From: an uncultured Pirellulaceae bacterium | GTDB lineage: Bacteria > Planctomycetota > Planctomycetia > Pirellulales > Pirellulaceae | Reading direction: 5' to 3' | Assembly (NCBI GenBank): GCA_937967505.1 | Contig: CALCJM010000109.1 | Span: 1 to 40,824, forward strand | DNA length: 40,824 nt | Part shown: in pieces, positions 15,147 to 17,438 of the stretch | How the letters are laid out: each line of letters starts with the position of its first letter | How positions within the stretch are numbered: the stretch's first letter is position 1 | The notes under the pieces: model-generated | Told to the model about the DNA's origin: nothing | Databases searched by the model: none | What the model saw: only the letters and a program-made list of their open reading frames with translations | Translations under genes and position numbers: made by a program

Positions 15147-15935
15147 CTATTGGCCAAATTTTGCCATCAGTCGATTGGCCAATCCCGGGATCAATCGGTC
15201 CAACCAAACCAGAATCCGCCCGCCGCAGGTCAGGATGATTTCATGCCGCCGTTTGCGGATCGCGCGTACGGTTCTGGCGGCCACCGCTTCCGGAGACATC
15301 GCCCCGCGTTTCTTCCAGTCCTTGTTCGTTTGATCTTCAATCGACGCGTCAAAAAACTCACTGTCAGTCGTACTGGGGCTGACCAGCAATACTTCCACAC
15401 CGTCGGCAGCAAATTCCGCGCGAATCGAATCGCTGAATCCGTGTACTGCAAATTTACTGGCGCAGTATTCGCTTTTCAAGGGAGCACCGCGATGGCCCAG
15501 AACGCTGCTGATGTTGACCACGATCGGATCGTCGCCCCGTTTAAGCAACGGCAGTCCGATCCGAATCAGCTCCGCCAGTGCAAAAAAGTTGACTTCGAAG
15601 ATCTGCCGCAATCGTTCTGGTCGCGCTTCATCAAAACGGCCCATCGCGCCGATCCCGGCGTTATTCACCAAAATATCCAAACCGCCAAATTCGCGCTGGC
15701 ACAGGTCCACCAGCTGCCGGCGACAGGCCTCATCGGCAACGTCACCGGCAAAGACGACTGCCGTACCACCGGCGGCAGTGATCTGCCGCGCCAATTCGTC
15801 CAAACGCTCTTTGCGTCGCGCACAGATCATCACTCTGGCCCCCTGGGCGGCCAATTGAACCGCCAAATGCCAGCCGATCCCGCTGGAAGCTCCGGTGATC
15901 AGGACGCTTTTGCCGGATATATCCCTTTTTGCCAT
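15147..15935 (-). CDS. Short-chain dehydrogenase/reductase
   Basis: 262 residues from ATG 15935. A classical SDR Rossmann fold: TGASSGIG cofactor motif near residue 14, ICARRKERLDEL suggesting NADP(H) preference (Arg-Arg after beta-2), NNAGIG, catalytic Ser in NISSVLG and YCASK (Tyr-x-x-x-Lys). The substrate cannot be predicted. The C-terminus (about 225-262) is basic and hydrophobic (RRHEIILTCGGRILVWLDRLIP), as in SDRs that associate loosely with membranes. An upstream in-frame start at 16007 is possible but gives 24 unlikely residues. Confidence 0.9.
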   Translation of the reverse strand: MAKRDISGKSVLITGASSGIGWHLAVQLAAQGARVMICARRKERLDELARQITAAGGTAVVFAGDVADEACRRQLVDLCQREFGGLDILVNNAGIGAMGRFDEARPERLRQIFEVNFFALAELIRIGLPLLKRGDDPIVVNISSVLGHRGAPLKSEYCASKFAVHGFSDSIRAEFAADGVEVLLVSPSTTDSEFFDASIEDQTNKDWKKRGAMSPEAVAARTVRAIRKRRHEIILTCGGRILVWLDRLIPGLANRLMAKFGQ

Positions 15936-16094
15936 AAATTTTGCGGTGCGGTTCAGTGATTTAACCAGTTTAAATCTTCGGAGGTTGTCGCTCCAAGCGA
16001 CCACCATCAGTCCGTGTCTATTTATTTGTTACTATATGTGTCAGCAGATCAGAAAGATATCGCTGGTACTCGTAAAACCCGTTTTCGCGAATCA

Positions 16095-17438
16095 ATGATG
16101 ATTAATAAATTGAACCGACCTTTTGCATGGGCTGTTTTCCTGACCGGCGCGGTAATCGTGGCAACCGCTTGCTCCTTCGCCTCGCCTGTTTCGGCCCAAA
16201 CCACTGCGGCCCAACCATTGAGCGCCCCTGCCAATGAGGCCGAATTCCGAAAACTGTTGCACTCGATCTCGCCGGACGCCGCCGAGGAAAAATGGCGGCG
16301 AACACCGTGGGTCCCCAGCATCTGGACGGGCATCCGGATGGCTCAACAGCGACAACAGCCGTTGTTCCTGTGGGCGATGAACGGCGACCCGCTGGGCTGT
16401 GTCTGAAACAATGGTGTTACGGGCCGTGTGTCCGTTTTCTCGGATCAGCGCATCATTGATTTTATTACGGAACATTTTGTTCCCGTTACCACCGACATTA
16501 ACCAATCTCAACATCGCAAAGACTTTGAAGGTGATTATTTCCGCAAAATCGCCGAACAGGGCCACTACGCCGGACGCACCAAACCAACTTCCACACGACA
16601 AGGGCTGTACGTGGCGACCGCAGACGGTCATTTACTGGCGTCGGTCAATTCGACCAAAGCTGATCAGGTGTTGAAAATGATGAAGCAGGCGGTTGCCAAA
16701 TGGCAGCAACGCCAGGCGCTGGGTGTGGCCGATTCAGGAAAGAAAATTCCCGCACGGATTCAGCGGGACAAAAATTACAGCGTGCCGTTTCCTGATGGCG
16801 GTTTGATCTTGAAGGAGACTTGCCGTGACTTGCTGCGTCCTGACAACCCGTCCTTCAAAAACTGGCGTCACAATTTTGACAACGTATGGCTGACTGCAAG
16901 TGAAGTCGATCAGTTCAAACCAGTCAGTCGCGACGGCAAGGGTGGCCCCGGACAGGCTTCCAGAGGGCAGAAGTATAAAATAGATCGCGCCGTGATCAGT
17001 CGGCTTGCACGGTTTCATTTTGTGGATCAGGTCAACGGTGAGGCCTCCGCGTGGGATGATTCGGATGTCAAGGAAGCATCTTTGACGGCAGAGGTTGCCG
17101 AGGTCTCTGCGGAGAGTGTCAAAATTCGGTTGAGTGGACGGGCGAAGTGTATCAAGCCGCCAACGGGGGTTCGGAATCCGTATTCAGGTACAAAAATCGA
17201 CAAAGAACGTGGCGTGGATTTGCTGGTGTCGGGGTATCTTGCTTATGACCGTCAGTCTGACCAGTTCACCGCATTTGATTTGGTCGCACACGGCCAGCGT
17301 TGGGGCGCGGCGACCTACAATTTTCGCCAGCAGGACATGGGGCCCGAGCCGATCGGATTCGCGTTTCGCTTGATCGACAAGAAACCGGAAAACATGACCC
17401 AGCCAAAGTTCCTAGTCTGGGGTTATTTTGATCGTTGA
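16095..17438 (+). CDS. Exported thioredoxin-like protein with in-frame TGA; candidate selenoprotein
   Basis: Open from ATG 16095 to TGA 17436-17438 except for one TGA at 16404-16406. Read through, it gives 447 residues. Residues 1-34 form a Sec signal peptide ending SPVSA before QTT. Around the TGA the protein reads LFLWAMNGDPLGCV-U-NNGVTGRVSVFSDQRIIDFI: Cys102-Val-U104, placed after a hydrophobic strand as in thioredoxin-fold active sites, then the conserved-looking EHFVPVTTDINQSQHR. The second half (about 220-447) has no recognised domain. Frame and protein character continue on both sides of the TGA, with no frameshift and no other stop. The options are selenocysteine insertion (favoured, given Cys nearby and the hairpin just downstream) or a single nonsense mutation. 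Confidence 0.6.
16404..16439 (+). promoter_or_regulatory. Possible bacterial SECIS hairpin following the in-frame UGA
   Basis: Immediately after the UGA the RNA can fold as GAAAC (16405-16409) with the G-U-rich 16434-16439 arm, GG (16413-16414) with CC (16432-16433), a 3x3 internal loop, and UACG/CGUG (16418-16421 with 16425-16428) closing a GGC loop. The apical loop with its leading G lies 15 nt after the UGA, near the spacing known for bacterial SECIS elements bound by SelB. The fold was drawn by hand with several weak pairs. Confidence 0.4.

Follow-up and report, generated by a model that had tools for sequence, protein, structure and literature searches.

Does a single TGA inside a long reading frame mark a broken gene, or is it translated as selenocysteine (Sec)? 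The question is raised by a gene on the plus strand, at 16095–17438, of a 40,824-nucleotide (nt) stretch of DNA from an uncultured Pirellulaceae bacterium (contig CALCJM010000109.1, assembly GCA_937967505.1); we refer to this whole stretch as the window. A preliminary description had proposed that the gene encodes an exported, thioredoxin-like selenoprotein with a C-x-U motif, in a 447-codon frame that is open except for one TGA. Translation agrees: the only internal TGA lies at 16404–16406 (residue 104, in the context LGCV-U-NNG), and the frame ends with a terminal TGA. An annotation pipeline was also expected to report two proteins of about 103 and 330 residues; an open reading frame (ORF) finder indeed cuts the frame at the TGA, and the two ORFs, both with GTG starts, are 130 residues (16014–16406) and 336 residues (16428–17438) long. 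We conclude that the gene is best explained, with high confidence, as a selenoprotein gene for an exported thioredoxin-fold protein, probably an oxidoreductase, and comparison with its relatives makes Sec the almost certain identity of residue 104.

Recurrence of the TGA across the family

Relatives of the window protein align across the TGA, and three close ones (best-segment identities 72, 69 and 53%) keep a TGA at the identical codon, so its presence there is not due to chance. A first protein search of 392 Planctomycetota genomes (E ≤ 0.001) gave family matches in 105, a few of them weak or without Sec. Leaving out three segments that did not reach residue 104, we counted, among the loci fetched, 114 segments over the site, comprising 105 with TGA (the window copy included), 6 with Ser, 2 with Asp and 1 with Asn. 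Profile searches widened the set, covering 23 genomes, all from the first set, and two partly new sets of 347 and 154 genomes; a part of their matches was fetched, 30 loci from each plus 20 further regions, and, counting the loci of the first round, among the matches listed in the two larger searches every stop-free one covering the site was included. From 226 domain hits in 214 loci, 20 with fewer than 300 matched columns or a gap at the site were dropped (12 TGA, 2 Ser, 6 gaps), and merging identical hits left 182 distinct near-full-length members, the window protein among them. At the site, 163 of these have TGA, 8 Ser, 5 Asp, 2 Cys, and one each Thr, Arg, Pro and Gly. The stop-free members were looked for deliberately and those with TGA merely sampled, so the non-TGA share is if anything too high.

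A nonsense mutation or a sequencing error could have split a once-intact gene, and a single TGA within a draft such as this one (5.03 Mb in 183 contigs, completeness 88.9) could be an error. The recurrence of the TGA at one codon, in 163/182 members, refutes this explanation and leaves it a negligible probability. Most of the matches listed have exactly one TGA and no second stop, and, judged by substitution rates, both halves of the frame are under purifying selection. The non-synonymous rate (dN) is far below the synonymous rate (dS) on either side of the TGA, with dN 0.22 and dS 1.8 before it and 0.17 and 3.2 after it for the relative L039, in line with the protein character that had been noted on both sides; since dS is saturated and some comparisons yielded no dS, the direction alone counts. 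Nor is TGA simply reassigned, because it serves as the terminal stop in 49 of 114 family genes. A quick tree (FastTree) calls for nine switches between TGA and another residue, so Sec was lost or gained several times.

The surroundings of the site were compared in the same 182 members. A Cys two residues before it (−2) is found in 138/163 Sec forms vs 2/19 non-Sec forms, and a Cys three residues after it (+3) in 2/163 Sec forms. In a divergent subgroup (L247–L252) the Cys immediately precedes Sec, giving C-U in place of C-x-U. As a separate observation, genome G280 gives 17 matches to the family profile, most of them with one TGA and some weak and possibly from related families, which amounts to a large expansion of thioredoxin-like selenoproteins.

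Selenocysteine machinery and the hairpin beyond the TGA

The genes that the preliminary description proposed to look for, selA, selB, selD and tRNA-Sec, are all present above cut-off in the genome of the window. selA scores 560.6 bits, selD 269.5 bits and selB, which adjoins selA on contig C64, 342.6 bits; the tRNA-Sec scores 70.3 bits against a cut-off of 47, and ARAGORN also calls a tRNA-SeC with anticodon tca. The same genome carries a type 2 member of VPGUxxT, a catalogued selenoprotein family, with a TGA in its VPGU motif. Together with the TGA at the site in homologues, and Cys there in two, this bears out the proposal that the codon is read as Sec.

Across the first set of genomes, selB was scored by a proxy (E ≤ 1e-72) standing in for the curated cut-off. 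It was found in 95/105 family-matched genomes vs 140/287 others (Fisher p 2.6e-15, uncorrected for kinship). Ten matched genomes lack selB by this measure. Five of them hold TGA forms (four were read, and G281 is known from the search listing alone), and since all five have selA, selB is probably just missing from these drafts. Three others have Ser or Asn/Pro forms and no selA (G296, one of these, is 61% complete), and the last two give very weak family matches (E 3e-4 and 4e-4), likewise without selA. In four genomes with neither selA nor tRNA-Sec over the cut-off, the members found have no TGA at the site, which is instead Cys in G607, Ser in G097 and G174, and Pro/Asn in G296. The Cys form of G607 (L235) comes from a genome that is 99% complete; the second Cys form (L234) is in G611, where tRNA-Sec is present and selA-like matches are weak. 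G611 has four paralogues (L234, L239, L240 and L253) in which the site reads Cys, Gly, Asp and TGA, and is possibly a lineage that is losing the use of Sec, or else its assembly has a gap.

In a bacterial selenocysteine insertion sequence (SECIS), the loop of a hairpin lies 16–37 nt after the UGA, with a G within its first two bases, and we applied this rule to the family. The window has a candidate at 16419–16435 (+), a 6-bp stem in which 16419–16424 pairs with 16430–16435 around the loop CGTGT (16425–16429), at −6.5 kcal/mol and with its loop starting 18 nt past the TGA. A hairpin placed in this way beats the mean of its own synonymous shuffles in 81/105 Sec forms vs 4/9 non-Sec forms. A further control swapped synonymous codons between relatives, and since this does not remove relatedness fully, the flanks were treated alike as a check. 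Counting the T of the TGA as 0, a stem of at least 5 bp with its inner pair at 20/26 occurs in 49/101 distinct regions vs 27.5 in the controls (standard deviation (sd) 3.5, maximum 36, 300 runs). The six pairs of this stem are standard in 76.6% of cells vs 34–42% if it is slid by 1–3 positions, and pairs 16-30 (C-G, T-A) and 17-29 (G-C, C-G, T-A) change on both sides. In other members the loop begins about 5 bases further downstream. In the larger set, a hairpin of at least 6 bp stands in the permitted place in 113/156 vs 75.8 (sd 5.6, maximum 90, 200 runs), with 30/160 vs 23.3 in the upstream flank and 36/159 vs 29.6 further downstream; z is 6.6 at the permitted place vs 1.9 and 1.5 in these flanks, and for at least 7 bp 6.7 vs 0.0 and 1.4. 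Just 1/19 non-TGA members has a hairpin of at least 6 bp. At the level of the family, then, a hairpin of the bacterial SECIS type lies just 3' of the UGA; Rfam gave no match to the gene region at E ≤ 5.

These data bear on another reading, in which a near-cognate tRNA reads through the TGA, or an amino acid other than Sec is inserted there. The comparison shows that the codon is translated and not which residue is inserted, and 13/19 non-TGA homologues have Ser or Asp. We nevertheless consider such decoding very improbable: the TGA forms track selA, selB and tRNA-Sec, the site is that of the nucleophile in thioredoxin active sites, it holds Cys in G607, which has no selA or tRNA-Sec over the cut-off, and the hairpin fits a bacterial SECIS.

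Several observations weigh against the assignment of Sec. None of the 114 first-round segments has Cys at the site, and Cys occupies it in just 2/182 members of the wider set; the preliminary description had held that varied residues other than Cys would favour a mutation or an error, and by this measure the prevalence of Ser and Asp over Cys partly runs counter to Sec, even as TGA in 163/182 supports it. G611 holds a TGA form without selA over the cut-off, though with tRNA-Sec. Ser, Asp, Thr and Arg forms are found in genomes that have tRNA-Sec (G774, G776, G770, G396 and G643), so a non-Sec form does not always go with a lack of the machinery. No Cys stands at −2, −1 or +3 in 12/163 Sec forms, and a Cys at −1 is kept in 5/19 non-Sec forms; the link between Sec and the Cys partner is thus incomplete. 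Taken alone, the hairpin of the window is weak, being equalled by 36% of its synonymous shuffles, and the 60 nt that begin with the TGA have, as a whole, an ordinary folding energy (mean z 0.00 over 105 Sec forms).

The predicted protein and its active site

The structure model (predicted local distance difference test, pLDDT, 91) consists of a signal-like helix (residues 8–27), a thioredoxin domain (residues ~48–208; 16236–16718) and a C-terminal beta domain (residues ~237–427; 16803–17375). The model resembles solved thioredoxin-fold domains, as the preliminary description had proposed, and the large second domain, which that description omitted, has no clear match in the PDB and none in Pfam. 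From the model helix and a signal peptide placed by eye at residues ~1–35 (16095–16199), the product is very likely to be exported across the cytoplasmic membrane.

The active-site motif, C102-V-U104-N-N-G107, lies at 16398–16415. Cys102 stands at −2, so far in agreement with the C-x-U motif described before; that motif was incomplete, as in the alignment to 3f9u Sec104 falls on the first Cys of CVNC, and Gly replaces the second. The window protein thus has U-N-N-G and not a classical CxxC, and the usual pattern in the family is CxUxxG with Cys at −2. Among 68 aligned rows Arg111 is conserved in 68, Asn106 in 63 and Gln169 in 59, and Gly170, which aligns with the Pro of 3f9u that precedes the last strands, is Gly in 66.

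In the mechanism that we propose, SelB with tRNA-Sec would decode the TGA at codon 104 as Sec, aided by the hairpin just downstream, and the product would be exported across the cytoplasmic membrane. There Sec104, at the nucleophile position of a CxxC site with no resolving Cys at +3 (Gly107), would attack its substrate, which could be a peroxide or else a disulfide or oxidised group; the selenol would then be regenerated by Cys102 at −2, its likely partner, or by an external thiol. The protein would most likely be an extracytoplasmic selenol/thiol oxidoreductase; that it acts in redox catalysis is something we infer, and hold to be probable.

The selenol could instead serve mainly as a ligand of a metal or metalloid, in a sensor, chaperone or sink. 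The cis-Pro of thioredoxins hinders metal binding, and in this family Gly170 stands in place of the Pro of 3f9u; the missing resolving Cys points in the same direction. The Cys at −2 that accompanies Sec in 138/163 forms, however, suits a redox pair equally with a ligand pair, and the gene neighbours give no lead either way; we regard a ligand role as unlikely. A special case of the oxidoreductase reading is an exported Sec peroxidase in which the C-terminal domain positions or binds the substrate. The thioredoxin fold, the single catalytic selenol and the conserved Arg111, Asn106 and Gln169 would suit such an enzyme, which we consider possible, if on balance doubtful.

Relation to known families and gene neighbourhood

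The window protein has no Pfam match at E ≤ 0.1 and reaches no NCBIfam cut-off; the one sub-threshold NCBIfam match is to the VPGUxxT family NF041382 (12.6 bits vs a cut-off of 350), and NF041383 is not listed. VPGUxxT (NF041382, NF041383; the hypothetical protein OS_HP5 of PMC13188914) likewise has a domain of thioredoxin type in which Sec holds the corresponding position, and a profile-profile comparison with ten planctomycete members (probability 94.7%, E 5.8e-8, 118 columns) indicates that it is a distant relative of the window family. It differs in its motif, VPGU and then xxC in all ten members (two with Cys for Sec), unlike PLGCxUxxG in the window family, and in type 2 an MsrA-like region follows, whereas the window family has its beta domain without Pfam match. 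As an observation on VPGUxxT itself, three type 2 members (L132, L133 and L141) each have a second in-frame TGA besides that of VPGU; it lies in FAM[TS]UFW or a near variant of it, at the start of the MsrA-like region (Pfam PMSR 28.7 bits in L141 and 20.2 in L132, cut-off 23.7). They look like double selenoproteins, and PMC13188914 gives one Sec for this family.

The thioredoxin domains of DsbD (C-terminal, gamma) and DsbH/DUF255 (3f9u, 3ira, 1uc7) share 9–15% identity with the window protein; 3f9u and 3ira have CxxC, and 3f9u has Pro at the strand, where the window protein has U-x-x-G and Gly170. Thioredoxin_7 (PF13899) matches 7/68 family members weakly (best E 0.0011), with no match at E ≤ 0.1 for the window protein and 16.0 bits (cut-off 27) for a Cys-form relative. 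Eukaryotic SELENOF is also thioredoxin-like with a Cys two residues before Sec. To our knowledge, thioredoxin-like CxU selenoprotein families have neither the additional C-terminal domain nor UxxG. The Sec.1 CxU selenoproteins (PF13192) of PMC13188914 likewise have a Cys two residues before Sec in a thioredoxin-like protein, and differ in that the window protein has no PF13192 match. No entry in Table 1 of that 2026 review (119 families or subfamilies) is recognisable as this family, though names in a table cannot exclude one, and it did not appear in searches of the literature or in passages of PMC12013277, PMC4807772, PMC5029168, PMC1794560 and PMC1242214; an earlier description is possible, and supplement S9 of PMC4807772 covers candidate selenoproteins from the planctomycete genomes P1 and P2. 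Given the absence of a Pfam match, the sub-threshold NCBIfam match and the lack of a recognisable Table 1 entry, this is apparently an undescribed selenoprotein family, a variant of the thioredoxin-fold selenoproteins.

No operon partner was found around the family loci. Upstream of the window gene, and outside the finding, lies a divergent short-chain dehydrogenase (SDR) gene (15150–16007, minus strand; Pfam adh_short E 1e-51). A divergent SDR gene recurs at L039–L041, and a similar gene elsewhere lies beside L028; other neighbour clusters comprise at most 8 loci each and are not annotated. In G478 and G466 the family gene (L254 and L255) lies about 3 kb from selA, L255 being judged on distance alone. 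At L254 the order is family gene, CDP-alcohol phosphatidyltransferase and then, on the opposite strand, a Pyr_redox_2 protein fused to a SelD-like AIRS part, selA and selB; two genomes are too few to lean on. Elsewhere in the window, 38543–38624 matches Group II intron D1-D4-1 above the gathering score.

Lastly, we consider what the family would mean. Sec occupies the site in about 90% of distinct members across the phylum and is otherwise replaced mostly by Ser or Asp, in forms that usually lack a nearby Cys (12/19), so that the original chemistry seems to have been given up and not run on sulfur. It is conceivable, though we put it at somewhat below even, that these are enzymes in which Sec dominates and Cys is almost unable to take its place. 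According to a 2025 method paper (PMC12013277), Cys homologues now seem to exist for every known selenoprotein, and the finder it presents may miss selenoproteins without them; a family with Cys in 2/182 members comes close to that blind spot. If the Sec reading holds, a family matched in 105/392 sampled Planctomycetota genomes is liable to annotation as pairs of truncated proteins, and with its unusual CxUxxG site it would offer an exported selenoenzyme that can be tested directly. If a Sec-dominated family is indeed what we see, it would easily be missed by finders that rely on Sec/Cys pairs, and it would point to a reaction outside the cytoplasm that needs selenium.
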